DNA from: a virus
Length of the DNA stretch: 25,779 nucleotides
Direction: 5' to 3' (one strand)
Virus record (IMG/VR): IMGVR_UViG_3300009537_002006
Location: 1-25,779 of that record
Part shown: positions 1,871-24,525 of the stretch, piece by piece
Position numbering within the stretch: position 1 is the first letter of the stretch
Layout: the number at the start of each line of letters is the position of its first letter
Program-made: the position numbers and the translations under genes
Notes under the pieces: generated by a model
Told to the model about the DNA's origin: nothing
What the model saw: the letters and a program-made list of their open reading frames with translations, nothing else
The model's database searches: none

Positions 1871-3418
1871 ATGGCCATAAAAAAACTCTACGCCGACGGC
1901 AGCGCGCCCAAGGACACAGACCAGACACGCCCAATGGTTATTCGAGTAGCTGAACAAATAGCCACCCGTATTGGCAATACGATTGGTCCTGGAGGGAGAA
2001 ACTACATGACACCCGATGGTATAACGAACGATGGTGTCTCTATTCTGGATCACATGCGCTTCAGCGACGAACGAGAGGACTCGATAGCGGATGCTTTCCA
2101 AGAAGTAGCCCGCCGGCAGGACACTGACGCTGGTGATGGTACAACGACTGCTACTTTACTTACCTGTGCGCTCACTCCGCTTGTCCTTAATGATGTCTCA
2201 GACATAAATGTCCCTATGCCAGGCGGAAAGACAGTAATGGACATCAAAAAGACATTGGAAGAGGAGCTTACTGAAGCCCTCACTCACCTAGAGACACTGA
2301 AAAATGAGGATGTCACGCTTGACGAACTCAAGAAGGTGGCCTATACAGCGATGGAGTCACACCCTTCCAGTGATCTGATTGCTGAAACTATCTTCGAAGT
2401 CGGTTATAACTCGAATACTTCCATCAAGGAAGGCTTTTCTGGTAAGGTGGAGGCTACTGTGGTGCCTGGAATTCATATGCCACTGAAGATTGAGACTCCA
2501 TCAATGTATACGAACCCCACACGCAAGGAGGCAACACTCGACAATCCTGTTATTATCGTTGCAAACCATGTTTTTGAGGCAGTCTCAGACCTCAGTCAGT
2601 TCCTCTCTACCATGGTTGCCAATAAAGAGAAACCCTCCCCCATCGTTATCATTGGGAAGCATTTTTCGGTGCAGTTTACTGCGCAGATTGTCGCGATGAG
2701 TCGTCAGAGTGGTCTTCGGATCCTTCTGCTGAACGCTAATGGTCTGCGGGACGACGAATTTAAGGATATTGCGGAATATGTGGATGCAAAATACTACGAT
2801 ACGCATCCGAAGGAGGGGGATAGCATCACAACGATGACTTACCAGGATGCAGGTGAGGCGGAACAGCTTATTGCTGGGCCAGTGCAGACTTCTCTCACTG
2901 GTGGCCGTGGAATTGTGTCAGGACGGGTGTCATCAAGAATAGCTGACCTCCAGGAACTTGCCTCTAAGGAACAAATTCCCCTCGAGCGAGATCTCCTTCT
3001 CAGAAGAGCCGCTGGTCTTGATGGTGGCGTTGCTACCTTATATGTCGACGCTAAAACAGCTGTTGACAGGTACTACCTAAAGAAAAAGGTAGAGGATACG
3101 GTGAACTCATGCAAGGCAGCCATGGAGTACGGTACGTTGGCAGGGGGTGGTGTGGCATTGATGGGTGTAGCGAAAGAGATGGATGCTGAAAGTTACCTAT
3201 TTCAAGCCCTCCAAGTAATCCACGACCGCGTTCAGAAGAACGCCGGTGGCAACCTAGCTATTGGTGATGATGTCCGCGACTCCTACCACACAGTGAAGAG
3301 CGCGCTGGAGAATGCGGTGGCGGTAGTAAAAATCCTCACAACGATGGAAGGTGTTATAGCTGACCCCGACCGCTCCTTCGTCGACGACCTAAATCAGAAA
3401 TTGGGATATGAAAACTAA
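1871..3418 (+). CDS. groEL: Phage-encoded GroEL-type (group I) chaperonin
   Basis: This is an ATP-driven ring chaperonin that folds substrate proteins in a cavity. Hallmarks appear in order: GPGGRN (39-44, GPKGRN in GroEL), TNDGVSIL (52-59), DAGDGTTTATLL (86-97), GGVATLYV (385-392), VEDTVNSCKAAMEYG (407-421) and LAGGGVAL (423-430). Asp residues matching the E. coli ATPase residues D52, D87 and D398 are present at 54, 89 and 409, so ATP hydrolysis is probably retained. The apical domain (about 185-370) is strongly diverged. At 515 aa it is slightly short of the usual 540-550 and lacks the Gly-Gly-Met tail. No GroES-like gene is in the window. It starts one base after the 38-aa gene and overlaps the next gene by 11 nt. 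Phage chaperonins of this kind are known in some large phages, where at least some work without GroES; the substrates here are probably virion proteins (inference). Confidence 0.93.
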   Translation: MAIKKLYADGSAPKDTDQTRPMVIRVAEQIATRIGNTIGPGGRNYMTPDGITNDGVSILDHMRFSDEREDSIADAFQEVARRQDTDAGDGTTTATLLTCALTPLVLNDVSDINVPMPGGKTVMDIKKTLEEELTEALTHLETLKNEDVTLDELKKVAYTAMESHPSSDLIAETIFEVGYNSNTSIKEGFSGKVEATVVPGIHMPLKIETPSMYTNPTRKEATLDNPVIIVANHVFEAVSDLSQFLSTMVANKEKPSPIVIIGKHFSVQFTAQIVAMSRQSGLRILLLNANGLRDDEFKDIAEYVDAKYYDTHPKEGDSITTMTYQDAGEAEQLIAGPVQTSLTGGRGIVSGRVSSRIADLQELASKEQIPLERDLLLRRAAGLDGGVATLYVDAKTAVDRYYLKKKVEDTVNSCKAAMEYGTLAGGGVALMGVAKEMDAESYLFQALQVIHDRVQKNAGGNLAIGDDVRDSYHTVKSALENAVAVVKILTTMEGVIADPDRSFVDDLNQKLGYEN

Positions 3419-3827
3419 CATAAACAAAACCCCACCAAACTGGTTGGAGATTATTGAACGCTTCCCTGCAGTGGAGCAGATGGTGGACCGGGTGGTATTC
3501 ACTTACTTCCCGCATATCTACGTGCCTAGTGGAGCCAAGCTCCCCTCTGATCTTCAGGTACACGAAGGGATTCATTTGAAGCAACAGGAGGAGATGGGGG
3601 TAGAAGCCTGGTGGGCATCTTACTTGTCGGACAATGATTTTCGACTGGAACAGGAGCTCCAGGCGTATGCGGCGCAGCTGCATGTGTGGCGACCGGCTGG
3701 GAACAGTCAGTTTCAGAAAGCGAAGGATCGGTTTTTGATGGATTTAACTTCACCAATGTACGATCTAGGAATTACTTATTCGGAAGCCGAAGGTAAATTA
3801 CGACGTTATGAGAAACTCATTAAGTAA
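3408..3827 (+). CDS. HExxH zincin-like protein 1 (putative metallopeptidase)
   Basis: This 139-aa protein carries HEGIH at residues 52-56 (bases 3561-3575). Zincin-type metallopeptidases use the two His of HExxH to bind zinc and the Glu as general base. A downstream helix with FRLEQELQAYAAQ (78-90) offers Glu81 and Glu83 as a possible third zinc ligand in the gluzincin manner. There is no signal peptide or membrane segment, so action would be in the host cytoplasm or inside the virion. It is shorter than most free peptidases but similar in size to phage SprT-like or minimal zincin proteins. It overlaps the chaperonin by 11 nt and the next zincin by 20 nt. Substrate unknown; capsid processing is possible. 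The fold assignment is from the motif only. Confidence 0.7.
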   Translation: MKTNINKTPPNWLEIIERFPAVEQMVDRVVFTYFPHIYVPSGAKLPSDLQVHEGIHLKQQEEMGVEAWWASYLSDNDFRLEQELQAYAAQLHVWRPAGNSQFQKAKDRFLMDLTSPMYDLGITYSEAEGKLRRYEKLIK

Positions 3828-4218
3828 ACACGAAACCTGGCTCAAGAAATTGAACTTAAAAGAAATCCCTATTCACATGGGGATGTTCGACTTTGGTATC
3901 AATTGTGTGATTGGCGATTATAAAGGTGTTGATGAGTATATCCAGACTAAGTTTGATGACCCTGAATTTAAAGCATCCAATTTTGACCAAGGATATGAAC
4001 CAAGAGGTAAGTGTCTGTATTGCCCTGGGTATCAACCAGTAATTTGGATTCCTCGTTATCCAAAGACACCAAGAGAACACGCCACACTAGCTCACGAGTC
4101 ATTACACGCTATGTTCCATGTAGTCCGATGGGCAGCCATCCCGATTGATGACTCTACCGAAGAAGTAATGACTCATGGAATGGCGCACATTATTCATGAA
4201 ATAATAAAAAGTAAATGA
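3808..4218 (+). CDS. HExxH zincin-like protein 2 (putative metallopeptidase)
   Basis: This 136-aa protein contains LAHESLHAMFHVV with HESLH at residues 96-100 (bases 4093-4107). The downstream Glu118/Glu119 (DDSTEEVMTHGMAHI) could be the third zinc ligand. The pattern HExxHA, a gap, then a Glu and a helix resembles small phage proteins annotated as putative metallopeptidases. A CLYC pair (69-72) may bind a structural metal. Apart from HExxH it has no visible similarity to the zincin just upstream, and the motif sits near its C-terminus rather than in the middle, so the pair is probably not a recent duplication. It overlaps the upstream gene by 20 nt and the downstream one by ATGA. No export signal is visible; the target is unknown. 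Confidence 0.7.
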   Translation: MRNSLSKHETWLKKLNLKEIPIHMGMFDFGINCVIGDYKGVDEYIQTKFDDPEFKASNFDQGYEPRGKCLYCPGYQPVIWIPRYPKTPREHATLAHESLHAMFHVVRWAAIPIDDSTEEVMTHGMAHIIHEIIKSK

Positions 4219-5181: not shown

Positions 5182-5760
5182 ATGGCTAAAACAAAATTTA
5201 TCGATCTGAAATGTGAGATATGTTCAACTGTTTTTAGCGGAAGTTTTCATCTAAGACGAAAGACTTGTTCTCGTGAGTGTACGATTAAACTCATGTCAAA
5301 AAATTCAGGAAGACCGAAAGGTATTCCCCATACAGCCGAATGGAAAGCGAAAGCCTCTGAGCGGAATAAAGGGGAGGAGAACTATTTCTTTGGTAAAAAG
5401 TTTACGAAAGAAAGTCATCCTGAAAATTTTAAAAAAAGAGTAGCTTCTTTACCTAGAGGAAAAGACCATCATGCCTGGAAGGGTGGAAAAGGGTCTTATC
5501 ATCATAAGGTGCGATGTACTCCTGAATGGCGTGAGTGGAGAAAAAGTATATATGAGCGCGACGGGTATAAATGTTTGGACTGTGGATCAAATGAGAATTT
5601 GGAACCACACCACATAATTCCCGTTAGAGATGAACAAAATCGTCATTTATTATTTGCGATAACCAACGGTGTGTCACTATGCCGTGAATGTCACATGAGG
5701 ACATTCAAAAAGGAAGAGAGTTTAGTTAGGATTTATTCCTCCTTAATCTCGGTTTCTTAA
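5182..5760 (+). CDS. HNH homing endonuclease 1 with NUMOD3-like DNA-binding region
   Basis: This 192-aa protein has an N-terminal zinc-finger pair (CEIC at 11-14; CSREC at 29-33). A basic region with the NUMOD3 look follows (SGRPKGIPHTAEWKAKASERN at 42-62 and GKKFTKESHPENFKKR at 71-86), which in homing endonucleases binds DNA. The catalytic HNH domain is C-terminal: CLDC (131-134), PHHIIP with His143/His144 (142-147), TNG (161-163) and CRECH (167-171). Such enzymes cut a target allele and spread their own gene by repair. The gene is lodged between the scaffold-like gene and the capsid decoration gene, whose normal start codon is missing. It is less GC-rich than the scaffold gene, consistent with separate acquisition. 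The sequence outside the ORF is too short to house a group I intron core. Confidence 0.9.
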   Translation: MAKTKFIDLKCEICSTVFSGSFHLRRKTCSRECTIKLMSKNSGRPKGIPHTAEWKAKASERNKGEENYFFGKKFTKESHPENFKKRVASLPRGKDHHAWKGGKGSYHHKVRCTPEWREWRKSIYERDGYKCLDCGSNENLEPHHIIPVRDEQNRHLLFAITNGVSLCRECHMRTFKKEESLVRIYSSLISVS

Positions 5761-7202: not shown

Positions 7203-7218
7203 TGGTATACTGTAAGCA
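7203..7218 (+). promoter_or_regulatory. Extended -10 promoter of HNH endonuclease 2, predicted leaderless
   Basis: TGGTATACT at 7203-7211 is an extended -10 element (TGn plus TATACT). Its expected +1, about 7 nt downstream, falls on the ATG at 7218. A TTGACT lies upstream at 7189-7194, but with only an 11-nt spacer it is too close to act as a normal -35. As with the 1291 promoter, the transcript would be leaderless. Confidence 0.5.
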
Positions 7219-7736
7219 TGATTCATTCGAAAAATTGCAAACAGTGTGAGAGAAAATTTACCAAACCTCAAGGATGTTCTGTCAGAAGGTTCTTGGAGCG
7301 GACTAAATTTTGTTCAAAAGTTTGTGCATCAAAATCAATGATGGACAAATCTCCACGCTTCAAAGTTTGTGTTCATTGTAAAGAGAAGTTCAATAGACCA
7401 GATGACTACAGTAACAAGATGTGGTCGACTAGAAGGTTTTGTAACAAAAGGTGTGATTCTGATTATCGTAGCCTGAATCTCAGTGCGAACGATCCGAAAT
7501 GGAAAGGCGATAAAGTCGGTTATCGACAACTTCACGCTTGGGTTACAAAGCATAAAGGTAGACCTACAACTTGTGAATTCTGTTCAAGAAAAAGATTGAA
7601 AGGAAGAAGTATTCACTGGGCTAATGTAGACGGAAAATACCGTCGTGACCTCGACGATTACATACGACTGTGTGTAAAATGTCATAGTGCTCACGATCGT
7701 AGTACCAACTATTTACTTACTCGACACAAGAACTAA
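7218..7736 (+). CDS. HNH endonuclease 2 with two N-terminal zinc fingers
   Basis: This 172-aa protein has two treble-clef-like Cys4 modules: CKQC (7-10) with FCSKVC (31-36), and CVHC (51-54) with FCNKRC (75-79). A HNH domain of the HNH_3-like style follows: CEFC (119-122), SIHWANVDGKYRRDLDDYIRL with His133 and Asn136, then CVKCH (152-156). It probably cuts DNA as a free-standing homing or nicking enzyme. The gene lies between the major capsid gene and an intact downstream gene, and it carries its own promoter, typical of a self-sufficient mobile cassette. A weak AT-only hairpin (7735-7750) marks its 3' end. It shares little visible sequence with HNH 1 and 3 beyond zinc-binding Cys, so the three look like separate acquisitions. 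Confidence 0.88.
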   Translation: MIHSKNCKQCERKFTKPQGCSVRRFLERTKFCSKVCASKSMMDKSPRFKVCVHCKEKFNRPDDYSNKMWSTRRFCNKRCDSDYRSLNLSANDPKWKGDKVGYRQLHAWVTKHKGRPTTCEFCSRKRLKGRSIHWANVDGKYRRDLDDYIRLCVKCHSAHDRSTNYLLTRHKN

Positions 7737-12358: not shown

Positions 12359-14558
12359 TCGAGATTACGTTAGTGAAGGGTTGAATGTAAACGCGCCAAT
12401 GGTGGGGCAGGATTCCCCTGTAACAATTCAAGGCGGTGGAGGCGATGGTGGAGTAAATGTACTCCTTCAAGGAAAGGTAGAACGAACTAATGCTAGTAAT
12501 GGAAAAACTGCGACTGTAACAAATGGAGAAAATATTCAAATTGCTTTAGATAATGTGTATAAATCAGGAGGTGGTACTGTAGTTGTATTACCGGGTACCT
12601 ACGTTCTAAATTCTGATCTAAATATTCCTTCAGGAGTTAAACTCGAAGGAGCATCCCGTGATGGTGTTTTAATTGATTGTAACACTAACTATTCAGTAAA
12701 AATGAATGGTGTCTCTGTTTATAGTACTGGCACAGTTACGATCGCAGTAGGTGATTCTATTGTTGTCGGTTCAGGTACTACTTGGACTTCAGATATGGTA
12801 GGTTCGTATATTTTACTGGATGATTATTACTATGAAATAACTGGTTATAATTCAGCAACTTCACTTGATATTGGTGAAGTTTACGCTGGTGTCGCTTTAA
12901 GCACAGATACTTATGTAATAGCTGATCCAAACTGGAATCCAAGTTTGGTCCGAGTGACAATTTTTAATTCTAGTGGTGCTGGTGTTGAATGTCATAATTC
13001 TTCTGAACCTAATCTTGATGATATATATGTATATGAATGTGGTACTGGTTTTGATATAAGCGAAGTAATTTTTCCACGTCTTCTTTTAACTGCGATTGCT
13101 AATGGAATTAACTTGGATTGTTATAAGATGCACGGATTTAAGATTGATTATACAGGACTTGAAGACGCAACGAATCAAGGAGCTATTTTTGACACTTGTA
13201 CTAGTGGAACATATTTTGATTCAAATATTACTGGAAATGGAGCGGATGGAATAAAACTAAATGACTGTAGAGGAATTGCTTTTATTTCAGTTTTTATTAA
13301 CGTTAATAGTGGTAAGGGTATTGAATTTGTTTCAAATAATTCTGATATACAGATGATGGGATGTACCATATCCGAGAATACAAGCGATGGAATAAAACTA
13401 ACAGCTTCAAGTGATCGTATTTCAATTTCTACAACATCTATTACAAATAATGGAGGTTACGGTGTGAATATAGCTGCTACAACTTGTGATGACAATTATA
13501 TTGTTGCTCCGTCATTTAATAATAATACATCTGGAGATATAAATGATAGCGGTACAGGTACAGTTTTAATTCCAACACTTTCAGAAGCTAATTTCGGTGA
13601 TGGGTCAGATGGAGTAATTGATTTAGATGGAACTAATACCTATGCTGGACATATCAGCAAGTCTGGAAATACTTATACACTTTTACGGAATTTATATGCG
13701 CTGTCACTAAATATTGATTCAGGTATCACCCTGATTGCAGATGGTTATAAAGTATACGTAGATGGTGCCACATCAGGATCTGGGACTATTAAAGGTGTGT
13801 TGGCAAGTAATGGTACAGCTGGTAGTAATGGAACTTTATCTAATGGAGGAGCTGGAGGAGCTGGAGGAGTTTCAACAGGTAGCGGGTATTTCAAAACTAC
13901 GGTTGGTGCTGCTGGGGCTGCTGGTCAAAATGCTGGTCTTTTAAGTGCTCCACCTGCAGGATCAAACGGAGGGGCAGTAGACCCTGGTATCGGAGTAGCT
14001 GGAGTAGCTGGAGGAGCTGGAGGAGCTGGATCACCAGCCGGTACTGGACCAGCAGTTTCGTCAGGAGGTGCAGTAGTATCTCCAGATTTAAAATTTGGAA
14101 CAGGTGTTTATGGGATTTATGAGATGGAGGACGTTGATTTTGATGGTACCCACAAAAAAATACTAGGGTCAGCTGGGTCTGGAGGAGGAGGTGGTGGAGG
14201 AACAGATGATTTTGATAATGGTGGCGGTGGCGGCGGTGGCGGTGCTGGTGCTTCAGGATCAATTGTTTGGATGGCAGTAAAAAATTGGTCAGGAGCAATT
14301 GTTATAGAATCAATTGGAGGGGATGGAGGGGATGGAGGGGATAGTTATGCGAGTGCAGGAGATACTGGTGGTGGCGGTGGCGGCGGTGGCGGTGCTGGAG
14401 GTGTGAGTGTGGTAATTTATAATAAAAAGAACTGGACCGGAAGTTATACTCTAACTGGAGGAGCTGGAGGTGCTGGAGGTTCTGGACGTGGAGCTGGATC
14501 AGCTGGATCAGCTGGAACAACTGGAACAACTGGAACTTCTTATGAAATACAAGTTTAA
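12348..14558 (+). CDS. Tail fibre or spike: beta-helix followed by glycine-rich adhesin tip
   Basis: The start at 12348 is chosen over the in-frame ATG at 12339 because it has the TTATG context used throughout; both overlap the upstream gene. The first 55 residues should bind the tail. Residues 55-430 look like a right-handed parallel beta-helix (pectate-lyase type): NIQIALDNVYKSGGGTVVVLPGTYVL and SGVKLEGAS, then repeated short Asn/Gly/Asp coils. A small beta unit at about 440-483 (TLLRNLYALSLNIDSG, LIADGYKVYVDGA) leads to a glycine-rich domain (about 498-736) with GGAGGAGG and poly-Gly runs, resembling polyglycine-II adhesin tips of T4-like gp38 proteins. No polysaccharide-cleaving residues can be identified by eye. 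The protein is probably a receptor-binding trimer. Confidence 0.8.
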   Translation: MSVSRDYVSEGLNVNAPMVGQDSPVTIQGGGGDGGVNVLLQGKVERTNASNGKTATVTNGENIQIALDNVYKSGGGTVVVLPGTYVLNSDLNIPSGVKLEGASRDGVLIDCNTNYSVKMNGVSVYSTGTVTIAVGDSIVVGSGTTWTSDMVGSYILLDDYYYEITGYNSATSLDIGEVYAGVALSTDTYVIADPNWNPSLVRVTIFNSSGAGVECHNSSEPNLDDIYVYECGTGFDISEVIFPRLLLTAIANGINLDCYKMHGFKIDYTGLEDATNQGAIFDTCTSGTYFDSNITGNGADGIKLNDCRGIAFISVFINVNSGKGIEFVSNNSDIQMMGCTISENTSDGIKLTASSDRISISTTSITNNGGYGVNIAATTCDDNYIVAPSFNNNTSGDINDSGTGTVLIPTLSEANFGDGSDGVIDLDGTNTYAGHISKSGNTYTLLRNLYALSLNIDSGITLIADGYKVYVDGATSGSGTIKGVLASNGTAGSNGTLSNGGAGGAGGVSTGSGYFKTTVGAAGAAGQNAGLLSAPPAGSNGGAVDPGIGVAGVAGGAGGAGSPAGTGPAVSSGGAVVSPDLKFGTGVYGIYEMEDVDFDGTHKKILGSAGSGGGGGGGTDDFDNGGGGGGGGAGASGSIVWMAVKNWSGAIVIESIGGDGGDGGDSYASAGDTGGGGGGGGGAGGVSVVIYNKKNWTGSYTLTGGAGGAGGSGRGAGSAGSAGTTGTTGTSYEIQV
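14220..14398 (+). repeat. 29-bp exact direct repeat pair in the glycine-rich fibre tip
   Basis: The 29 bases at 14220-14248 recur exactly at 14370-14398, 150 bases apart and in the same frame, both coding for a Gly run followed by Ala-Gly. Shorter tandem repeats lie around them: GGAGGGGAT three times (14316-14342), and GCTGGATCA twice (14493-14510) followed by GGAACAACT-type units. Such repeats can recombine or slip, changing tip length without breaking frame. Confidence 0.85.
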
Positions 14559-14566
14559 TAGTAAGG

Positions 14567-14583
14567 TATAATAATTAGTAATA
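14567..14583 (+). promoter_or_regulatory. Possible -10 element before the Ser-rich virion gene
   Basis: A perfect TATAAT sits at 14567-14572, 10 bases before the ATG at 14583, in the gap after the fibre gene. No acceptable -35 is found 16-18 nt upstream. In AT-rich DNA a lone TATAAT can arise by chance, so this is a weak call. If used, the leader would be only a few nucleotides. Confidence 0.25.
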
Positions 14584-15797
14584 TGGCAGTTTACAAAACA
14601 ACAGATGGAAAATGGGTCGCTTCCTATGGGGGAAAGAAGGTGTATACCACATCACAGTCAAAAGCACAGGCGGCTTATACTGATTTGAAAGCTGCTAAGA
14701 GCAGTAGCTCTTCTTCTAGTAGTAGTTCCTCTTCTAATGGTCGCTCTGTTCGTCTGGACCAAGCTAAGGTCGGTGATATAAAATCGATAAGAAGTGGTAA
14801 GTATACTTACTATACTCAAGCTGATATTAATGCGCGAGATGCTGCTAATCCTCCAGCTAAAAAGACTCTGTCTCCTGAAAAGATAGCGGAGATTGAAGCT
14901 ACTGGAGCTAGTATTGGCTGGACTCCCAAGCAAATCCAATGGGCTAAAGATGCTGCACTCGCGGCCTTGAATGGTACAGCTCAACCAGCTGGGACTCCTC
15001 CGCCTGAAGTTGCGGCTGTTGTTGAAGATGTTCCTGCTCCAGAGGAGACTGGCGGTACTGCGGACTCAACTGATTTAGAGAACTCGGCGGAGTTTAAGAA
15101 GTTGAGTAAAGAAGATCAGGAAGCAGTGTTGGCGGTATTTAATACGATTGCGAATAATGATCAAAAGCAGGCGGTTAAGTTTGCTGAAGCACTGAAGACT
15201 GCTGCGAAGATTAATGACCCTTACTTTGCTCAACAATTAACTCTGGCGGTTGATGCTATCGAACGTGGATATGTCTCGATTGATAATGAGGCGGAATTTG
15301 CAGAAGCTCAACTAATTAAGCGTCGTGATGACTTGGAGCAAGACTATCAGAGCAAGAAGGATTTCATGACATTAGAACAAGCGTCAGTGATGCGTGAGAT
15401 TGATAGAGCTTATGGCCAGAATTTGGAGAACCTACAACAGAGTATGGCTGCTACTGGGTTTACTCAGTCTTCACGTCGAGCGAAGAAGGAGGGGTTCTTA
15501 AATGAAGCAACTGGTGATCTAAGGGAATCAAAGAATCGAACCTTTGCTTACCAGCAATCACAAGAAGATCGTTCTTTGAGTAGAGGGCAACGTGATACCG
15601 CTGCTGAGATTGCTCGGTTGAAAGAACTGACAGCGGAAGGAAAATTAGACTTTTTGCGCAAGGCAGAGGCGCAAACGGGAACGGGAAATCTCCCTGATTT
15701 AGCAGGGGCTCCAGCGCCTTTAGGTAATATCACGGGTGACATACCAGAGAAACGTTTGCAAAACACAATACAAGCTGCCCAATCCTTTGTGTTCTGA
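14583..15797 (+). CDS. Putative internal virion protein with AP2-like N-terminus and Ser run
   Basis: Residues 8-38 (DGKWVASYGGKKVYTTSQ, then KAQAAYTDLKAAK) have the three-strand-plus-helix pattern of AP2-like or integrase-type DNA-binding modules. A run of 12 Ser (40-51), encoded by mixed AGC, AGT, TCT and TCC codons, forms a flexible linker. The rest is long helices: a Pro/Ala/Glu linker (about 138-160), then helical segments SAEFKKLSKEDQEAVLAVF and RRDDLEQDYQSKKDF to about residue 350. Composition and position between the fibre and very large internal protein suggest an ejection or internal virion protein, comparable in role to P22 gp7, gp16 or gp20. Mixed Ser codons indicate selection for serine, not slippage of a simple repeat. 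No enzymatic motif is visible. Confidence 0.55.
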   Translation: MAVYKTTDGKWVASYGGKKVYTTSQSKAQAAYTDLKAAKSSSSSSSSSSSSNGRSVRLDQAKVGDIKSIRSGKYTYYTQADINARDAANPPAKKTLSPEKIAEIEATGASIGWTPKQIQWAKDAALAALNGTAQPAGTPPPEVAAVVEDVPAPEETGGTADSTDLENSAEFKKLSKEDQEAVLAVFNTIANNDQKQAVKFAEALKTAAKINDPYFAQQLTLAVDAIERGYVSIDNEAEFAEAQLIKRRDDLEQDYQSKKDFMTLEQASVMREIDRAYGQNLENLQQSMAATGFTQSSRRAKKEGFLNEATGDLRESKNRTFAYQQSQEDRSLSRGQRDTAAEIARLKELTAEGKLDFLRKAEAQTGTGNLPDLAGAPAPLGNITGDIPEKRLQNTIQAAQSFVF

Positions 15798-15807
15798 CAC
15801 ATAAATT

Positions 15808-16473
15808 ATGAAATGTCAATATAATAAAAAACTTAGGTCTATTTATTTAAACAAAACTTTTGATGTTGTTTGTTCGGAGTGTAAAAAAGAAAGGACTGTA
15901 AAAATGAGTACATACCGAACTATAAAAAATAGAGGGAGCTTATGTGGTTCTTGTTCTCATAAAGGTATGGAATCTTGGAATAAAGGAAAAAAAGGTGTTC
16001 AAAAAGCCTGGAATAAAGGTTTACATACTGTTAGTAAGAGAGATTGTTTGTTTTGTAAAAAGGAATTTAAGACTATTATTTCTAATATTCAAGAGTGCTG
16101 TTCGCATTCATGTGCTCAACGATTACGAGTTCGAATAGGAAAGCATCATTTTGGAGATGGGACTAAGACAGATTTGAATTTTGCAGTAAGAACATCTGCT
16201 CCATATAAAAAGTGGAGAAAAGCTGTGATAAAAAGAGATGGGTACATTTGTGGTGAGTGTGAGGTGGAGAGTAAAAAGGGTAAGTTCTGTCTTATGCATG
16301 TGGATCATATAGTTCCCCTAAGTTTTTTACTTAAGGAGAATAATATTAATACTGTCTATGAAGCAATCGGATGTAAGGCTTTATGGAAGATAGAAAATGG
16401 AAGGGTGCTCTGTAAGGAGTGTCATTTATTAACCGATACGTATTCCGGGCGTGCTTTAAGTTATAATAATTAA
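15808..16473 (+). CDS. HNH homing endonuclease 3
   Basis: This 221-aa protein has an N-terminal zinc finger (CSEC at 22-25; CGSC at 46-49), a NUMOD-like basic repeat (SWNKGKKGVQKAWNKGLH at 56-73) and a second Cys module (CLFC at 80-83; CCSHSC at 97-102). A C-terminal HNH nuclease follows: CGEC (148-151), MHVDHIVPL with His164 and His167, ENGRVLCKECH with Asn197 and Cys202/Cys205. It shares the core pattern WRKxxxxRDGYxC with HNH 1, so these two may be related. The gene is much more AT-rich than its neighbours (about 27% GC in one 60-base line versus 45% in the upstream gene, counted by eye), indicating recent or foreign origin. It sits between two intact internal-protein genes, one base before the next ATG. 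Confidence 0.88.
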   Translation: MKCQYNKKLRSIYLNKTFDVVCSECKKERTVKMSTYRTIKNRGSLCGSCSHKGMESWNKGKKGVQKAWNKGLHTVSKRDCLFCKKEFKTIISNIQECCSHSCAQRLRVRIGKHHFGDGTKTDLNFAVRTSAPYKKWRKAVIKRDGYICGECEVESKKGKFCLMHVDHIVPLSFLLKENNINTVYEAIGCKALWKIENGRVLCKECHLLTDTYSGRALSYNN

Positions 16474-16474
16474 T

Positions 16475-17500
16475 ATGGCTGGATTAAATCAAGATCAACT
16501 AGATATACTAAAAGGAATGCCTGGTATTGACCAGAAGCTTGTTTCTGCGTATGAGAAGGGTGGGGCTAATCTTTCTAAAGATGAGCTTTCTTATGTTGAA
16601 AGCAAAGTGGTTACTCCTTCAGTTGTTTCTCAAACTCAAACTGGAGCGAAGGTTACTCCAACAGCAGATTTTAATCCTGATGAAGCGACTAGTCGTATAA
16701 CTAATTTTAGTGCTGCTTTGAATACGGCAATTGATAAAGCTCGTACCCAGCGACAAGATCAAACTTTGGATATGTTGGGTGGAGTTATTCCTTCCGGAGC
16801 ACTTCCAGCAACCTCGTTTGGTAGTGTACTGAAAGCATTTGATAATAGTTCAGCTCCTATCGAAGCGTCTTTACTAGATAGCGCCACTGGTTTTGCACAA
16901 GATATGGAACAGATGAAAGCTGATGAAGCTGCTCAAGCTAAACAGATTCAGGTAGATAATCAGAATTATATACGTGAGTTAGCTCTTTCAGTGGCTACCG
17001 AAACTGGTGATACGAAAGCCGCAAAAGTAATTTCTTCGTTAGTTGAAGGTGGAGACATCGATGCAGCGATTAACGCTTCATTGGCTGCCTATGGTGAGGA
17101 GTACTATAGAAGTGGAAATAATATTGTTACAAGGGATGAAGATGGTTCAGAAGAGACTGTGCTTGAATTCAAGAGTAGTGGCGAACCTCTAGCAACTTAT
17201 GGTCCGGCTGATAAATTTATTACCATGGCGGCTAAAGATGTGAAGAGTGAAGCGGTTCGTTTGTTTGGAACAGAGAATTTAGATTACTTTGATAATGTGC
17301 AAAAGCATACTCAAGATGAGTTGAAGAGCTTTATGGCTTTTTATCTTGAAATGATGAAGACAGAGAAAATGTCAATTCCTTTCACTATTGCTTATAATGA
17401 GTGGAGAGATGCTCGGGGTACTCCCGTAGAGAAGGATAAGAAGGGTGAGTCAGTTGAGACTGGAGATCTTTGGGATGACGTGTACGGAGAAAAAGAATAA
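16475..17500 (+). CDS. Putative internal virion/ejection protein (341 aa)
   Basis: The sequence is mostly helical and soluble. It starts MAGLNQDQLDILKGMPGIDQ, has an Ala/Gln/Asp-rich helix around 140-180 (AQDMEQMKADEAAQAKQIQ) and ends with an acidic tail (TGDLWDDVYGEKE). There is no Cys, signal peptide or convincing membrane segment, and no enzymatic motif. Together with the preceding 404-aa and following 1690-aa proteins it forms a helix-rich trio between fibre and portal genes, a typical position for proteins that leave the virion with the DNA. It starts one base after HNH 3 and ends 2 bases before the 1690-aa gene. Function is inferred from location only. Confidence 0.6.
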   Translation: MAGLNQDQLDILKGMPGIDQKLVSAYEKGGANLSKDELSYVESKVVTPSVVSQTQTGAKVTPTADFNPDEATSRITNFSAALNTAIDKARTQRQDQTLDMLGGVIPSGALPATSFGSVLKAFDNSSAPIEASLLDSATGFAQDMEQMKADEAAQAKQIQVDNQNYIRELALSVATETGDTKAAKVISSLVEGGDIDAAINASLAAYGEEYYRSGNNIVTRDEDGSEETVLEFKSSGEPLATYGPADKFITMAAKDVKSEAVRLFGTENLDYFDNVQKHTQDELKSFMAFYLEMMKTEKMSIPFTIAYNEWRDARGTPVEKDKKGESVETGDLWDDVYGEKE

Positions 17501-17502
17501 TT

Positions 17503-20500
17503 ATGTCTTTATATACTGAATATAAAAAAAGGAAAGAACAAGAAAAGGTAGTTCAGAATGTTGGGCTACCTGATTTCGGTGTAAGTGAATCAACTCATGC
17601 TCTTCCAAAAGATTTACAGCCAGCTAAAGTTCTTCCACCTTCTCCAAATACTACGCCTTCGACTCCTTTGGTGCGGGCTCCTGGATTAAAGATTAGTGGA
17701 ACAGGAGGGGAGGTTAAGAGCCTCTATGGTGAAGATGGAAAAATCTCTAAGGAAGTTATTGAAACAAATAAAGAAATTCGGGAAAAGAATACTCGCGAAT
17801 GGTTAAAAGGAAAGTTACCGGAACCGGTGCGCGAGGCTTTTTTTGGTACTGCGGTTCAAGGCGATAATGGTCTTATTGGTTGGATGTATGAAGAGAATTT
17901 AAAGTCAGATGAAATGAAGTACAACCAATACGAACGAGCCTTCCAGAGGTCAACTCCAGATCCTTACCGTCGCAGTGAATTAGCTACCGAGATAATTAAT
18001 GGTACTGAAATTAATGAACTTACTGAAGAGGAGAAGAGGGTGAAAAGGAGTTTAGTATTCTCGCGAGCTTTCTGGGGAACCTTAGAAAAACTTGACGCAA
18101 TTGGTCCGGTTGGTACCTTTGCTAAAGCTGCAGTAAGTAAGGTGGCAAAGCCTGTATTTAAAGCTATTAGCGCGGCTTCAAATTTAGATGAAGCTCAAAC
18201 AGTTCTGCGAAATATTGGAATAGAAGAAGATGTGATTGCGAAGTGGGGTGATGATGCTGTAAAAGCAACGACAGAAGAAGAAGTAACAACATTATTAAAA
18301 AATGTAGTTGATGACCAGAAGGTCAAAACCGGTATTGAAGAATCTGTTCTAAAAACAGTAGATGCTACTGATCCAATAACTGTTAGCGGTAAAGCTTTTT
18401 CTGATGAGGTATCAACCTTTAAGAGTGATATCAGAGAGGCGGCTGGTGAGGCTGGAGTAGTGATAAAAAAAGCTGATAATACTGTAGCAGCTTACCGCCG
18501 AGTAGTGGATCAAATAGAACAAGCTGGAGTGAAAGTGGAAGGTTTAGTAAAAACTCTTGATAATATCGAAGCTACAATCCGAACTGAGCCGGGGCGGTTT
18601 ATTGAAAACATTGTTCCTAAGATTCAAGAGGTAGTCCGAGCTGGGGAGGTTCCTAAAGATACTACCGGTCCTGTGTTCTTTGCTGATAAGACTGAGGATG
18701 GGATTAATTATGCCCGTGGTTATACAATAAAAGATATTATAAAAACAAATGAACCAGGTGTGATCCATACAGCAGAGTTACCAGAGGATTTAAAGATTTT
18801 TGATTCAAGTAAATCAGAAGATATTATAGCTCTTCGCAAAGTGTCTCCAGAAGCTGCTGATGCCCTTCAGGCTACTCCAGACTGGCAAGTTGGTACAAAG
18901 TATCTAAAGGAGGTAGAGAAGGCAGGCTTTGATGCTGCACGGCTGTTAGAACGCCCTTCTGGCTCTCCAGTTTTCGATGCAGTGGGGAAACAAGTAGCAG
19001 CTAAGGCTGATATTTATAGTACAGCAGTATTTAATCCTAAAAAAGTAAAATGGGGTAAACAACTAGATGAGGTGGCTGATCCTGTTAAAGAGAATTTAGG
19101 AATATTGGCAGTACACGTCCAAGAGCGGTATGGTAAGGCAGCGGTTACAAAAGCAAAGGCTCGTAAGTTTGCTGAGAATGAAAAGAAGGTATTTTTTCAG
19201 ATTGCAAAATTTTCTGAAGAAGCTAGATACGTAGCTGAAAATGGTGGTGAGATGATTCAAAGAATGCCAGAGTGGGTACCTAAAAATCTACAGAATGTAG
19301 TCCTTTTTGATGAAGTAACAGAAATTCTTGGTCGAGGAGGTGCACCAACTATCCATGGTGGTCCACATATGGAGCTATATACAGCGATGGTTGATGAGAC
19401 TGCTAGGTTGGCTGGGATTGTCAAGAAAGGTCCAAAGCCAGCGGTTGATGGTTCAGGAGCGATTGTACAGTCAATGCGTGAGAATACAGCGTTGCCTGGA
19501 GTTCCTCGACTGCGTGAAGAGCCTGGAGTCACAAAAACAAAGCCTGAAGCAGTAAAGGACAAGAAAAATGTCTTTGAAGATGATGAACCATCTGATTTTG
19601 ACCTTGAGAAATATGTTGCCAATAGAGGTGAAGAAGTTCGACTAGCGATGCCAAAGGCTCCACGTAAGGATATTAAGTGGATGGAGAAGGTTGAATTCAA
19701 GTTCGAAGGTGGTGATGTAAAGGACGTCGGTAAGTTCACTGCCTATGGTAACGATGTGTTCGCTGTCTCTGAGCGTGTCCTTAAAGAAAACTGGGCACTG
19801 ATTAAAGAAAAAGTCTTTGATCCTTTTGATGCTGCTAAAGGACGCTACGCTCGGGAGTCAATAGATCTTAATGAGGAACTCACCAATGTTATTGTCAAAA
19901 AATTAGGTATCACTCGAAAGAGTAAAGCTAGTGCTGCGGTTCAGGACTTTGGGGAAGGATTGAAAACTTATGACCAAGTGGTTCGCGAGTTTGGAGTTGA
20001 GCGAGCTAATCAGATCAAAGAAGCCTCTGAATGGTTCCGCGGAAAGTACGATGATATGCTCACAACTCTCAATGCTGGTCGACCAAAGTGGAGTCAGATT
20101 CCTAAACGAGATGATTACTTCCGGCACTTCGATGAACTTAGTGACTTCGGTCAATTAAAGAATAACTTTGAAAATCCTTCACTTGGTAACATTCGTGATG
20201 AGAGTTTAACCACAGCTGCTCGAAAGTTTTCCTTCACTAAGGCTCGAGAAGGTGAGAAAACCATTCGTGATGCGGTTGGTGGTTTTGCTAATTATATTCC
20301 GCAGTATACCTACACTAAGCATTTGAACCCTGAGATTTCAAAGATTAATGCGTTCATTAATGCGATGGAGAAACAAGGTGGGCCACAGGGTTATATTGAT
20401 TTTATAAAGACCTGGAATAACGAATTGGCTTTTGCTTATAATCCAATCGATGCCGGACTCGACTGGATGCCCGGCAGTCGTCAGACTATTGAAGTGGTCA

Positions 20501-22575
20501 ACTGGTTTAACAACCGAGCGAAAAGAAACGCAGTCCTTGGTAACTTCGGTACAGCACTTGCTCAAGCTTTCAACTGGCCGAACTTGGTATCAGAAGCTGG
20601 TCCAGTAGCGGTAGCAAGAGGAATGAAGACGTTTACAACAGATCTTCGTAAAGGAGGAGAGATGACTTGGCACCAGAGTGATTTCTTGACTGAACGATTT
20701 ATGGCTAATTCCCAGCGTGGTCTTAGTGTTGGGTTCTGGGAAAAGACTACAGATAAAGCCGGGTGGATGATTGCTAGTCTTGATGAGGTAGCTTCAGTCC
20801 ATGGATGGTATGCCTTACGAGAAAAAGGGATAGCACTTGGAGTGGCTGACCCAGTGAAATATGCAGATGATTTAACTCGCCAGATGATTGGAGGTCGTGG
20901 AATTGGCGAAGTATCAATCATGCAGAAAGCGAAGCTCTTCCAATTGGTAGCACCATTTACTTTGGAAGCAGTGAAAACTCTTCAGATTTTAAGTAAAAGA
21001 GTGAGAGAGAAGGAAGGTGGCAAAATCGCCTACTATCTTCTTGCTACCTATTACATGAACATGGGTGTTGAAAAACTGACTGGTCAGGAGGTTTCTATGA
21101 ACCTTGGTGGAGCAGCTTCAGATGCTTACGATATTTATAATGATGCCGAATCAGATAAGGCAAAGCGTATCGCTGGCCGTATGGGTGGAGAAGTCACTGA
21201 TGGTATTCCGCTTGGAAAGTATGTAATGGGTGGAGTACAGTGGGCTTCAGGCATGAGTGATGACGATCGAAAGAAAACCTTTGGTGAAGGTGATCCGTTG
21301 AAATATGGTACTTCTCCATTACTTTGGAACGCGATAAGTCCATTGTTTGAAGCTGGGTATGGTAAAGACTCAGAGGGTAATGACCTGACAGACAAGAAAC
21401 GTGCAGCTCTTATAGTGAAGTCGATGTTCAAGATAGGTACTCCACTTGGTGGACGCCAGTTAGATAAAACTGTTGGTGGTGCTCTTCATTTGTCAGAAGA
21501 AGATCCAGATCCAGCGGTGCGTCCTGGTTATCCTGGAGTTGCTCAGAACTTGTTGTTCGGGAAGTGGTCGCCAAATATTAGTTATGAAAAAGCTCAAGAG
21601 GATGCGATGCGTGAACTTCATCATGAAATAGAATCACATCTTCAGAGTGGCGATGAAGAAGTTAAGAAAGCCATCAAAGCTGAAATCAAGAATATGGATC
21701 CAAAGGAGCAAGCGATTCTTCGCAAGGTTGCTTTGGAAGAAAAAGCTATCCAGAAAGAGAAGGATAAAAGAGATATGCTACCAACCTATCGAGCTGTTGG
21801 AGCGATGGTGGCTAATGGATATAAAGATAAAGCTCGTCAGGTGCTTGGTGAATTGACTGAAGAGGAGCAGAAGATTTATCGTGAAGTAAATAAAGAACAG
21901 AAAACGGAAGCTGTAAAGATTGCTGAAGGAGTTGAAACAGATCCGGAATCTATTATCCGAGAGGTTGTTGATTATGCTTATGCTATTGGTACTAATCCAA
22001 TTCAGGCTTTTAGTCATATCTTTAAAGGACAACATATCGAAACCACAGTTGGAGGTGGCTTTGGTGGTATGGTTACCGTGCGACGTATTCCTGAAAAAGG
22101 TAATGGAGGTTCGGCTGAAATTAAAGCTACGTTAGCGAAAGAACAGGGAGTAACTGACTTAACTACAGTTAAGTTGGAGCACAAACTACCTTTGACTCTT
22201 GGTGGAAATAACCGGATGGAGAACTTAGAACTGGTTACTACTGAGGTTCATGATTCATCAACTTGGATGGAGGGGTATTTAGGTCGAGCAGTTAAAGCTG
22301 AGAAGATTTCATATGTGGATGCTCAGGAATTAATTATGCGGTTCAAGGGGTATACTGGAGAGAAGATTACCAAGGAGGAAATCCTTGAGGTTGTTGGGCA
22401 AAGTAGTTTTAGTAAAGATGAGTATCATAAAGGATGGGATGATCTTGGAAAAGATACTTGGTTACTGAGTGATCAGGATTATGCAGAGCGAAAGGACCCC
22501 GTAACCGGTAAGAAGCAAGGAAAACGAACATTGGACCATCGGGAGCGAGATCAATTATTAGAGGTCAATAAGTAA
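17503..22575 (+). CDS. Giant multidomain virion protein (1690 aa) with ART-like region and HNH-like C-terminus
   Basis: One uninterrupted frame covers a fifth of the window. The N-terminal 120 residues are Pro-rich and disordered. Helices follow, with Ala-rich amphipathic segments (about 205-230). Region 388-520 (GPVFFADKTEDGINYARGY, GVIHTAELPEDLKIFD, VFNPKKVKWG) has the outline of ADP-ribosyltransferase-like domains found in phage polyvalent proteins, but lacks an obvious N-terminal HGT motif. A long helical stretch (about 780-1250) includes WFNNRAKRNAVLGNFG, KAKLFQLVAPFTLEAVK and a hydrophobic KIAYYLLATYYMNMG. The C-terminus carries an HNH-like motif: LEHKLPLTLGG with His1560, then MENLELVT with Asn1574 and His1583. 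This fits an ejected internal protein that may act on host or phage nucleic acid. No lysozyme motif was identified by eye. Domain calls are tentative. Confidence 0.6.
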   Translation: MSLYTEYKKRKEQEKVVQNVGLPDFGVSESTHALPKDLQPAKVLPPSPNTTPSTPLVRAPGLKISGTGGEVKSLYGEDGKISKEVIETNKEIREKNTREWLKGKLPEPVREAFFGTAVQGDNGLIGWMYEENLKSDEMKYNQYERAFQRSTPDPYRRSELATEIINGTEINELTEEEKRVKRSLVFSRAFWGTLEKLDAIGPVGTFAKAAVSKVAKPVFKAISAASNLDEAQTVLRNIGIEEDVIAKWGDDAVKATTEEEVTTLLKNVVDDQKVKTGIEESVLKTVDATDPITVSGKAFSDEVSTFKSDIREAAGEAGVVIKKADNTVAAYRRVVDQIEQAGVKVEGLVKTLDNIEATIRTEPGRFIENIVPKIQEVVRAGEVPKDTTGPVFFADKTEDGINYARGYTIKDIIKTNEPGVIHTAELPEDLKIFDSSKSEDIIALRKVSPEAADALQATPDWQVGTKYLKEVEKAGFDAARLLERPSGSPVFDAVGKQVAAKADIYSTAVFNPKKVKWGKQLDEVADPVKENLGILAVHVQERYGKAAVTKAKARKFAENEKKVFFQIAKFSEEARYVAENGGEMIQRMPEWVPKNLQNVVLFDEVTEILGRGGAPTIHGGPHMELYTAMVDETARLAGIVKKGPKPAVDGSGAIVQSMRENTALPGVPRLREEPGVTKTKPEAVKDKKNVFEDDEPSDFDLEKYVANRGEEVRLAMPKAPRKDIKWMEKVEFKFEGGDVKDVGKFTAYGNDVFAVSERVLKENWALIKEKVFDPFDAAKGRYARESIDLNEELTNVIVKKLGITRKSKASAAVQDFGEGLKTYDQVVREFGVERANQIKEASEWFRGKYDDMLTTLNAGRPKWSQIPKRDDYFRHFDELSDFGQLKNNFENPSLGNIRDESLTTAARKFSFTKAREGEKTIRDAVGGFANYIPQYTYTKHLNPEISKINAFINAMEKQGGPQGYIDFIKTWNNELAFAYNPIDAGLDWMPGSRQTIEVVNWFNNRAKRNAVLGNFGTALAQAFNWPNLVSEAGPVAVARGMKTFTTDLRKGGEMTWHQSDFLTERFMANSQRGLSVGFWEKTTDKAGWMIASLDEVASVHGWYALREKGIALGVADPVKYADDLTRQMIGGRGIGEVSIMQKAKLFQLVAPFTLEAVKTLQILSKRVREKEGGKIAYYLLATYYMNMGVEKLTGQEVSMNLGGAASDAYDIYNDAESDKAKRIAGRMGGEVTDGIPLGKYVMGGVQWASGMSDDDRKKTFGEGDPLKYGTSPLLWNAISPLFEAGYGKDSEGNDLTDKKRAALIVKSMFKIGTPLGGRQLDKTVGGALHLSEEDPDPAVRPGYPGVAQNLLFGKWSPNISYEKAQEDAMRELHHEIESHLQSGDEEVKKAIKAEIKNMDPKEQAILRKVALEEKAIQKEKDKRDMLPTYRAVGAMVANGYKDKARQVLGELTEEEQKIYREVNKEQKTEAVKIAEGVETDPESIIREVVDYAYAIGTNPIQAFSHIFKGQHIETTVGGGFGGMVTVRRIPEKGNGGSAEIKATLAKEQGVTDLTTVKLEHKLPLTLGGNNRMENLELVTTEVHDSSTWMEGYLGRAVKAEKISYVDAQELIMRFKGYTGEKITKEEILEVVGQSSFSKDEYHKGWDDLGKDTWLLSDQDYAERKDPVTGKKQGKRTLDHRERDQLLEVNK

Positions 22576-22591
22576 TGTATAATAAACCATA
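22555..22591 (+). promoter_or_regulatory. Possible leaderless promoter before the portal gene
   Basis: A perfect TATAAT at 22578-22583 lies 7 bases before the portal ATG at 22591. TTATTA (22555-22560, 3 of 6 matches to the -35 consensus) sits 17 bases upstream of it. The predicted +1 is at or near the ATG, the same geometry as the promoters at 1291 and 7203. The -35 is poor, and part of the site overlaps the end of the upstream gene. Confidence 0.4.
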
Positions 22592-24525
22592 TGGGAATCT
22601 ACACAGAAACACCAGAGCAGTCGGCAGCTCGCACACAGGCATACAAATATCTACATGAGATGATTGATCTCAAGGATAAGGTGATGCCTCATTTCTCTGG
22701 TCCAGATGGGGAGCGGTCATGGAATGATATGGTGGATGACTCCGAGATGATTTTGAATGGTTATACTCAGTCTCGAGAATCACAAGGTAAAGAAGATTGG
22801 CAGTCGAACATGATGGACAATGTGTCAAGAGTAAAACTCAAGGCGGTAGCGGCTGGAATAGGACTCCAGGTACCAGGGATGTCTTTTGTGGCCACTAATA
22901 AAAAAGGATTACGGTCTGCTACTCGAGCGGAAATTTTCAAGCACGTAACTCGACAAACTTTTCTCGATGGTAATCCAACCATGTCAGCTTTCCGAGAAGT
23001 GTGGCATATGTTAAGTCATGGAACTCTTTTTGAATACGAAGGATATAAGAGTGGTGGAGCGATGCGAGATCGAGTGATTTCTTTTAACTCACTTACAGGT
23101 GAAGTCGAGACAAAAAAAGAGTATGTAAAGATGGATGCAAAGCCGTTTAACGTTATTCTTAATCCACAGGAATTCTTCTGGTGGACTTTCTTTACTAATG
23201 ATGTTCAACAACAACCTCGTATTGCTTGGGTGCAGACATATACAAAAGGTCAATTAGAATTGGAATTTAGTAAGTACAAAAACTATGCTCTTGTTAAAGA
23301 TAAGAAGGGGTGTAAAGGAATTTCTCAATTAACTTCCTCTACGTTCTTTGAACGATGGAGTGAACGAATTACTCAAGAAGAAGATGAGTATGAAGTCTTT
23401 CGACTATACGATAAGGAACGAGACAAGTATGAGATCTGGATTAATGGTATCAACGTATTAACTGCACCAATTCTTTGGGGTGATAAGGAAAAAGCCTATC
23501 CTTTCGCTGTACAGCAAGGTGAAGCTTACGCTAATACCAACTTCTTTGTTGGTATGCCTTTTGGTCAGATTATGGAAGCGTACCAAGAGCACAAGAATAC
23601 TGTTATCAATACGATTATTGATAAGCTCTACCGGTCAGCTAAGAAGCCATTCCTTGTTGGTCTACAAAATAAGGATCTACTTGATGTTCAGGATCAATTA
23701 GTTGATGAAGATAACAAGTTCTATGTTCCTGATATTAATGACGTGAAGCCATTCCCTTACGAGGGACCTAACCAAGGGGAGTTCATGATGCTTTCTATTC
23801 TTGATAAGGGGCTTGAAACGATTTCAGTTGATAAAGCTCAACAGGGTCAATCAGCTGGCGGGGAACGAACAGCGCGTGAAGTAGTAATTGCAGATACTAG
23901 AGCCCAGGAAATTAAGGGAGCTCTTTATCTATCTCTTGAAAACCTATGGCTACAAAAGACTCGACTACGTACTCAAGTGAATATTTCACACTTCATAAAT
24001 GATAAAGCTGCTAGTAGTGACATGAAGGATCAGATTATCTCGATTGAAGATTACGAATTTGGTGACGGTTATCGTGGAGTCCTTGATATTCATATCGCCA
24101 AAACTAAGGCTAAGATGATGACTAATGATGAGCTCGAGAGTCGAGCTGCAGCAATGGAAGAGCAGGGGATGGCTTACAAGATTGTTTCAATAATGAAGTC
24201 ATATATTGATGACTGGAAGTACGACTTCAAAATCATTCCTGATTCATTCCATAAGAAAGAAAAGGATCTGGAGCAAGCTGAGTTCGATAGTGAAGTTCAA
24301 TGGCTTGCTACACTGGTTCCACAGTTCTTCCAAGCGAATATAGATACCTACCTGAAAGAGAAGTTGGCGTTCCGAGGGAAGAGGATGGAAGATTATAAGC
24401 AGTCGCAACCACCACAAGCTCCGGCGGGAGCAGAGGAGCAGCCAGCTGAGCAGGGTGGGGCTCCAATACCATCACCAGGTGGAATGAATCCTTTAGATGA
24501 AGGGGCTCAAGCTTTAGTTAAATAA
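22591..24525 (+). CDS. Portal protein
   Basis: This 644-aa protein forms the dodecameric ring at the capsid vertex through which DNA enters and leaves. Supporting elements: a helical N-terminal part with ARTQAYKYLHEMIDLKDKV, a beta-rich wing (FNVILNPQEFFWWTF; EVFRLYDKERDKYEIWINGI), and the long clip/stem region GQIMEAYQEHKNTVINTIID with KLYRSAKKPFLVG. The helix entry SAGGERTAREVV (421-432) matches the T-A-x-E signature of podovirus-type portals. The C-terminus is a Pro/Gln/Ala-rich tail. Length is within the range of podovirus portals. Its place after the internal proteins, more than 21 kb from the terminase, is unusual. Start context is CATATG with a possible leaderless promoter. Confidence 0.85.
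   Translation: MGIYTETPEQSAARTQAYKYLHEMIDLKDKVMPHFSGPDGERSWNDMVDDSEMILNGYTQSRESQGKEDWQSNMMDNVSRVKLKAVAAGIGLQVPGMSFVATNKKGLRSATRAEIFKHVTRQTFLDGNPTMSAFREVWHMLSHGTLFEYEGYKSGGAMRDRVISFNSLTGEVETKKEYVKMDAKPFNVILNPQEFFWWTFFTNDVQQQPRIAWVQTYTKGQLELEFSKYKNYALVKDKKGCKGISQLTSSTFFERWSERITQEEDEYEVFRLYDKERDKYEIWINGINVLTAPILWGDKEKAYPFAVQQGEAYANTNFFVGMPFGQIMEAYQEHKNTVINTIIDKLYRSAKKPFLVGLQNKDLLDVQDQLVDEDNKFYVPDINDVKPFPYEGPNQGEFMMLSILDKGLETISVDKAQQGQSAGGERTAREVVIADTRAQEIKGALYLSLENLWLQKTRLRTQVNISHFINDKAASSDMKDQIISIEDYEFGDGYRGVLDIHIAKTKAKMMTNDELESRAAAMEEQGMAYKIVSIMKSYIDDWKYDFKIIPDSFHKKEKDLEQAEFDSEVQWLATLVPQFFQANIDTYLKEKLAFRGKRMEDYKQSQPPQAPAGAEEQPAEQGGAPIPSPGGMNPLDEGAQALVK

Follow-up and report, generated by a model that had tools for sequence, protein, structure and literature searches.

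A Giant Cysteine-Free Protein with an HNH Nuclease-Like C-Terminus in a Candidate Ejection Cassette of an SU10-Portal-Type Phage

The Late-Gene Cassette and the Slot before the Portal

We analyzed a virus record of IMG/VR (IMGVR_UViG_3300009537_002006) over its entire length of 25,779 bases (designated the window), which is probably a genome fragment. An uninterrupted ORF on the plus strand (17503-22575), with an ATG start and a single reading frame, encodes a 1690-aa protein (designated P0001) in which a residue count found no Cys. It is preceded on the same strand by two genes for Cys-free proteins of 404 aa (cassette gene 1, 14583-15797) and 341 aa (cassette gene 2, 16475-17500), between which a gene for a free-standing zinc HNH endonuclease with 16 Cys is inserted (15808-16473, plus strand). 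Directly downstream of P0001 is the gene for a 644-aa SU10-type portal protein (22591-24525, plus strand; Pfam SU10_portal, 5.2e-5, with a score under the curated cut-off). The arrangement is that of an ejection cassette, i.e., adjacent late genes with the largest last (404, 341 and 1690 aa).

The N-terminal ~80 aa of P0001 (17503-17742, plus strand) are, by eye, rich in Pro and Thr and probably unstructured. A large body (residues ~720-1480; 19660-21942, plus strand), in which the Pfam search recognized no domain, appears helix-rich from a reading of its sequence. With the full-length protein, no Pfam, PHROG or NCBIfam match passed the cut-off, and PADLOC gave no matches. No homologs were detected in IMG/VR with the full protein and both candidate domains as queries, tblastn against INPHARED returned chance-level matches only, and no relatives were found in 380 genomes of Patescibacteria, the phylum of a relative on a Staskawiczbacteria contig (see below); six matches of 8-13 bits were inspected there and taken as chance. 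Several other candidates were rejected. A SieB match in the body (Pfam, 0.003) was under the cut-off, a relationship of the body to LPD38 was not detectable, a citrate synthase match of the C-terminus was short and in the wrong context, and a match to phage Ptacy1537 was spurious, lying on the opposite strand of the Ptacy1537 gene.

Comparison loci were fetched as relatives of the window portal, to which their portals showed 38-78% identity (78% in L002; 47-53% in L003, L004, L005 and L018). The slot before the portal was again occupied by a longer protein in L002, L003, L004, L005, L006, L015 and L018 (1428, 1789, 1709, 912 (partial), 1161, 1523 and 546 aa, respectively), and the order of two conserved Cys-free genes, slot gene and portal was shared by the window, L002, L003, L004, L006, L015 and L018. 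Both genes preceding the slot were recognizably homologous in several loci: cassette gene 1 is kept in L002, L003, L004, L006, L015, L018 and L134, and cassette gene 2 in L002, L004, L006 and L015. The inserted HNH gene has a relative (47%) at the same place in L003. The slot proteins were mostly unalignable, the only aligning pairs being L003-L005 (C-terminus, 38%), L004-L015 and L004-L005. P0001 had no BLASTP match at 1e-3 in the portal-relative loci (L002-L006, L015 and L018), and a two-sequence search against the L002 slot protein (20.6% over 180 columns, 1.6e-4) provided the sole sign, a hint, of shared ancestry. Domains in the slot proteins included LPD38 (L004, 1.3e-17; L015, 4.6e-32), a weak Hydrolase_2 at the C-terminus (L003, 0.027; L005, 0.018) and an HExxH motif (L003).

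A short motif was observed near the ends of slot proteins. P0001 starts with MSLYTEYKKRK, resembling both MSLFDDYKNN in the prophage protein of Staskawiczbacteria and, in L006, FLDAYKKKK. The motif, [LFMIVY]...Y-[KQ], occurred in the window, the prophage protein, L006 (2 copies) and L002 (4 copies, three of them C-terminal). It was defined after looking, and 10 of its 11 matches in eight proteins were near a terminus. Other duplicated motifs of slot proteins were LDFIS-x-PI in L003 and YTPV-x-QR in L134. Regions with such repeated end motifs were 17503-17560 in the window, 2256-2440 in L124, 6355-6450 in L006, both termini of 5665-9951 in L002 and 11897-11975 in L134. One possibility is that the end motif serves as a tag for packaging or docking. 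A Cys-free 1100-aa protein in L023 (15614-18916), located at a different position relative to the portal, is possibly also a delivered protein.

A Candidatus Staskawiczbacteria (Patescibacteria) MAG harbored one relative (L035) on a contig of 130 kb. This prophage-like region (G001 contig 17, about 83-128 kb) lies where a terminase-portal-capsid-tail series comes after ribosomal-protein-type genes (recognized by eye). Genes for 413- and 306-aa proteins with PG_binding_1 and LysM domains precede a Cys-free protein of 3903 aa, which matched LPD38 (3.1e-14), Helicase_C and SNF2, Eco57I and ResIII, as well as ART-PolyVal under the cut-off (1.8e-4). It is a polyvalent protein of the classical kind in the position equivalent to that of P0001. 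The context of L035 suggests Patescibacteria as hosts; for the window itself it is no proof. Another locus (L034) was on a 9.7-kb Aenigmatarchaeota contig, whose assignment may be a binning error.

Among other genes of the window, a full GroEL-like chaperonin is encoded just after the terminase (1871-3418; 6e-35 to a PDB GroEL chain, Pfam Cpn60_TCP1 1.3e-18). It had no relative in the portal-related loci and could serve the folding of the giant virion proteins of this phage. Two small overlapping ORFs (3408-3827 and 3808-4218) contained HExxH-type motifs (HEGIH and HESLH), the latter ORF with a SprT-like match under the cut-off (0.015). Cys-rich HNH-type ORFs, including the one inserted in the cassette, adjoin structural genes.

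Cysteine Exclusion in the Cassette

Nine slot proteins contained no Cys in 14,661 residues, compared to 97.5 expected, and 14 upstream cassette proteins had none in 5178 residues (34 expected). The expected numbers were based on 6.7 Cys per 1000 residues in the remaining ORFs of the same loci, with Cys-rich ones removed. Because the neighboring portals were also Cys-poor (0-4.6 per 1000), the contrast with virion proteins is smaller than that with all ORFs; even a rate of 1.5 Cys per 1000 would predict about 22 in the nine slot proteins. The cassette of a later locus (L134), fetched with another cassette gene after the nine-protein count, also had no Cys in its 990, 326 and 382 aa.

Cys exclusion is a marker of ejection proteins, not part of their formal definition, and was calibrated here on T7, P22, N4, SU10, phiKMV, Sf6 and epsilon15, using proteins known or annotated as ejected. 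Among late proteins of at least 400 aa, Cys was absent from 12 of 15 ejected ones and from only 2 of 30 others (Fisher p = 1.2e-6, proteins from related phages not being independent). The ejection proteins had 10 Cys in 17,477 residues, whereas the rate seen in the other late proteins would predict 119. Absence of Cys is neither exclusive to ejection, as scaffolds, the N4 major capsid protein and N4 gp57 are also Cys-free, nor universal in it, as epsilon15 gp13-17 have 1-2 Cys each. The three cassette proteins of the window carry this marker. For N4-like virion RNA polymerases, the lack of Cys has been noted and attributed to their route through tail and periplasm (PMC3715699, PMC5795418), and this was the only such remark that we found in the openly accessible literature; passages searched in papers on SU10 and DEV and in a review of ejection proteins yielded no discussion of it. 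The present data support, and provide a first calibration of, the testable rule that long Cys-free late proteins are ejected ones. An earlier note on this DNA had described P0001 as a 1690-aa virion protein; the ORF and its length are as stated, and virion status, though indirect, is well supported by gene position and Cys exclusion.

Two Candidate Enzyme Regions of P0001

An HNH-like nuclease domain without zinc Cys was found at residues ~1535-1620 (22105-22362, plus strand). Its core, E1559-H1560, N1574 and H1583 (22177-22251, plus strand), spans residues 1559-1583 (EHKLPLTLGGNNRMENLELVTTEVH). In a search of all PHROGs, the segment 22105-22407 had eight matches, among which phrog_333 (HNH endonuclease, 0.0037) and three further, weaker HNH families (phrog_6050, phrog_589 and phrog_9645) shared one place. 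When phrog_333 was searched against the window only, it matched three places: 5506-5700 (1.1e-7), P0001 at 22165-22299 (9.1e-5, 16.9 bits) and 16204-16425 (2.7e-4, 15.2 bits). Plain HNH ORFs underlie the first and the third of these places, and therefore P0001 outscores one undoubted HNH member. The match extends over only about 45 residues, and Pfam HNH_3 reached only 0.07-0.14, under the cut-off. A tblastn search of the HNH segment against phages gave no significant matches; several of the non-significant ones were annotated as HNH endonuclease, endonuclease VII or restriction endonuclease.

With a DNA pattern encoding EHK-x-P-L-x2-GG-x-N-x3-N-L, 24 loci were retrieved; the 21 proteins listed from them were zinc HNH proteins of the typical kind, in which the third catalytic residue lies at the distance found in P0001 (9 from N1574 to H1583). 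Thus, P0001 has the His-Asn-His catalytic triad at conserved spacing and shares with PHROG 333 and zinc HNH proteins the core E-H-x2-P-L-x2-GG-x-N-x3-N-L, including the exact spacing up to the third catalytic position. Unlike them, it lacks the two zinc-binding Cys pairs of the zinc (homing-type) subfamily, having no Cys at all, and its HNH-like part is fused to a 1500-residue virion-type protein. The motif was reached in 0 of 20,000 shuffles of P0001; given this and the PHROG 333 match, it is not due to chance. A single-sequence AlphaFold model of this end had a pLDDT of 42.1, too low to show a fold. The earlier note had proposed an HNH pattern at 1560, 1574 and 1583 lacking zinc Cys; these positions are exact, and spacing and sequence profiles agree with it. 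The sequence comparisons therefore support an HNH nuclease-like domain at the C-terminus, with a presumed nuclease activity on a DNA substrate.

An ART-like region (residues 374-520; 18622-19062, plus strand) was recognized by motif resemblance to proteins of L064, L073, L074 and L084. The motifs R379-A-G, FFADKTEDGINYA (392-404), GFD477 and VFNPKKV follow the order seen in ART-PolyVal proteins, with FFADKTEDGINYARGY lying between R379-A-G and GFD477 and VFNP located after the latter. The pattern FFAD-x4-A-x2-YA, built from the P0001 motif, retrieved 39 loci, of which those four had a Pfam ART-PolyVal match (under the family cut-off in L064). P0001 itself had no match to ART-PolyVal (PF18760), either by hmmscan of pieces or in a one-genome search, and PHROG and NCBIfam models were silent on this region. 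A home-made profile of seven ARTs ranked the region first, a circular test because five of the seven members were picked via the FFAD motif; after masking of the FFAD...YA motif, the score dropped from 12.6 to 2.2 bits, while shuffles reached 4.8. The polyvalent ART clade has an active site composed of H (strand 1), Y (strand 2) and D (strand 5) (PMC5512222). Y403 and D477 are, by eye, plausible counterparts of the Y and D; the strand-1 His is absent, with R379 instead. The single-sequence AlphaFold model of the region (pLDDT 40.8) was too low in confidence to show a fold. An ART-like region at 388-520, as earlier suggested, has thus one motif resembling ART-PolyVal, and ART in P0001 is unproven.

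A ubiquitin-like stretch at residues 347-403 (18541-18711) reached whole-sequence E-values down to 0.003 against polyubiquitin and was judged a chance similarity, with single-domain E-values of 3-13 and no response from Pfam ubiquitin. In L134, residues 431-498 of the Cys-free slot protein (13187-13390) contain VTIYRAG...GDWTTLSKKYAQTH...NEFGY, which resembles phage ART-like domains. Pfam found nothing in this region, and the YRAG motif was rejected as an ART link, as phmmer detected no similarity to P0001.

Delivery with the DNA and Alternative Explanations

We favor, with a probability of about 0.6, the view that P0001 closes a three-gene ejection cassette, as its largest product, in a podovirus-like phage with an SU10-type portal, and that its HNH-like end cuts DNA early in infection. 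Packaging and ejection of P0001 are inferred from its place in a portal-adjacent late operon, the parallel with the SU10 cassette and the absence of Cys, which also give indirect support to the earlier idea that it is delivered with the DNA. P0001 would be packed in the head together with the two Cys-free cassette proteins, threaded with the DNA through portal and tail, and would regain its fold within the host envelope or past it. The body of P0001 would perform the delivery task that gp16-like proteins share; the HNH-like end, with H1560 as general base, N1574 and H1583, would cut DNA, candidate substrates being the host chromosome, resident plasmids and prophages. The HNH would lack zinc Cys because the whole delivered chain was purged of Cys; the likely reason for such a purge, proposed for the N4-like virion RNA polymerase (PMC3715699), is to avoid disulfides during unfolded passage through the tail and the oxidizing periplasm.

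The closest parallels are SU10 gp20-gp24 (PMC9509320) and T7 gp14-15-16, which likewise form a late cassette whose last protein is large (1318-1473 aa) and Cys-free. In SU10, which shares the portal type, all five proteins of the run gp20-gp24 are Cys-free and the last has 1473 aa. In contrast to both systems, the portal comes after the cassette in the window, and P0001 ends in an HNH-like domain and showed no sequence similarity to their proteins in our searches. The N4 virion RNA polymerase gp50 (3500 aa) is also giant, Cys-free and virion-delivered, and is encoded beside two more Cys-free proteins, gp51 and gp52, an arrangement comparable with the window cassette; however, it has polymerase and zincin-like parts and no HNH-like domain, and no sequence similarity to P0001 was detected. 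Like P0001, polyvalent proteins (Iyer et al. 2017, PMC5512222) are large late-gene proteins, and in the slot of P0001 relatives (L004, L015 and P0005) carry ART-PolyVal, Eco57I methylase, SNF2 helicase and LPD38, whereas P0001 matches no ART-PolyVal or LPD model. In the main text of that study HNH appears only once, for GmrSD and for no polyvalent protein.

P0001 could itself be a polyvalent effector proper, as Iyer et al. use the term: an active ART (374-520) would modify host proteins, and the HNH, delivered along with it, would cut nucleic acid. The order R379AG, FFADKTEDGINYA, GFD477 and VFNP, the four Pfam ART-PolyVal proteins among the 39 loci and the ART-PolyVal match of the Staskawiczbacteria relative are in favor of this idea, but ART profiles never reach P0001, the signal is abolished by masking the motif, an Arg replaces the strand-1 His of the H-Y-D clade (PMC5512222), and the same stretch also resembles ubiquitin at chance level. 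Of the at least two disparate domains expected in one virion-delivered polyvalent protein, the HNH is supported and the ART unproven, and we regard this alternative as unlikely. P0001 might instead be a plain structural ejection protein, i.e., a channel component like T7 gp16 or SU10 gp24, with a non-catalytic HNH-like motif that serves, for example, DNA binding during translocation. Its position and size match gp16/gp24-like proteins (PMC8954989), and most of the chain has no recognizable enzyme domain. However, the H-N-H triad is intact, the slot proteins of relatives are too dissimilar for a conserved channel component alone, and some have enzyme-like parts, making this explanation improbable as well.

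It is rather doubtful that the HNH-like end is a domesticated or decaying selfish (homing) endonuclease, fused by accident and without a role in infection. Three free-standing HNH-type genes do occur in the window (5182-5760, 7218-7736 and 15808-16473), one of them inside the cassette, but they carry 9, 13 and 16 Cys, compared to none in the fused domain, and decay would not keep three catalytic positions intact at exact spacing. That P0001 is a tail or head structural protein which stays in the particle is very unlikely: although Cys-free structural proteins are known (the N4 major capsid protein and scaffolds), each locus has three Cys-free cassette genes, the signature is calibrated, and SU10 gp20-24 offer a parallel for ejection.

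Beyond delivery of P0001 itself, we tentatively propose, at somewhat less than even odds, that the cassette ends in an exchangeable cargo slot, in which the genes for delivery are retained, the giant protein at the end is swapped wholesale and every cargo is purged of Cys. The cargo in this proposal is an HNH nuclease in the window and elsewhere comprises cell-wall-hydrolase-like or zincin-like parts or a methylase-helicase-ART polyprotein. Some of these phages would probably infect Patescibacteria. If every cargo is Cys-purged, Cys-free giants encoded in late operons could serve as a guide to virion-delivered effectors in phages at large. Giant proteins delivered from virions are already known, as are polyvalent proteins; what is new, as far as checked, is an HNH-like cargo carried by an ejection protein free of Cys, together with a last cassette gene that is exchanged wholesale between close relatives. 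A giant ORF that could not be annotated thus becomes a concrete candidate for a delivered nuclease. The comparison also draws attention to an effector slot with swappable contents in phages that have at least one relative integrated in a genome of Patescibacteria, about whose phages little is known.
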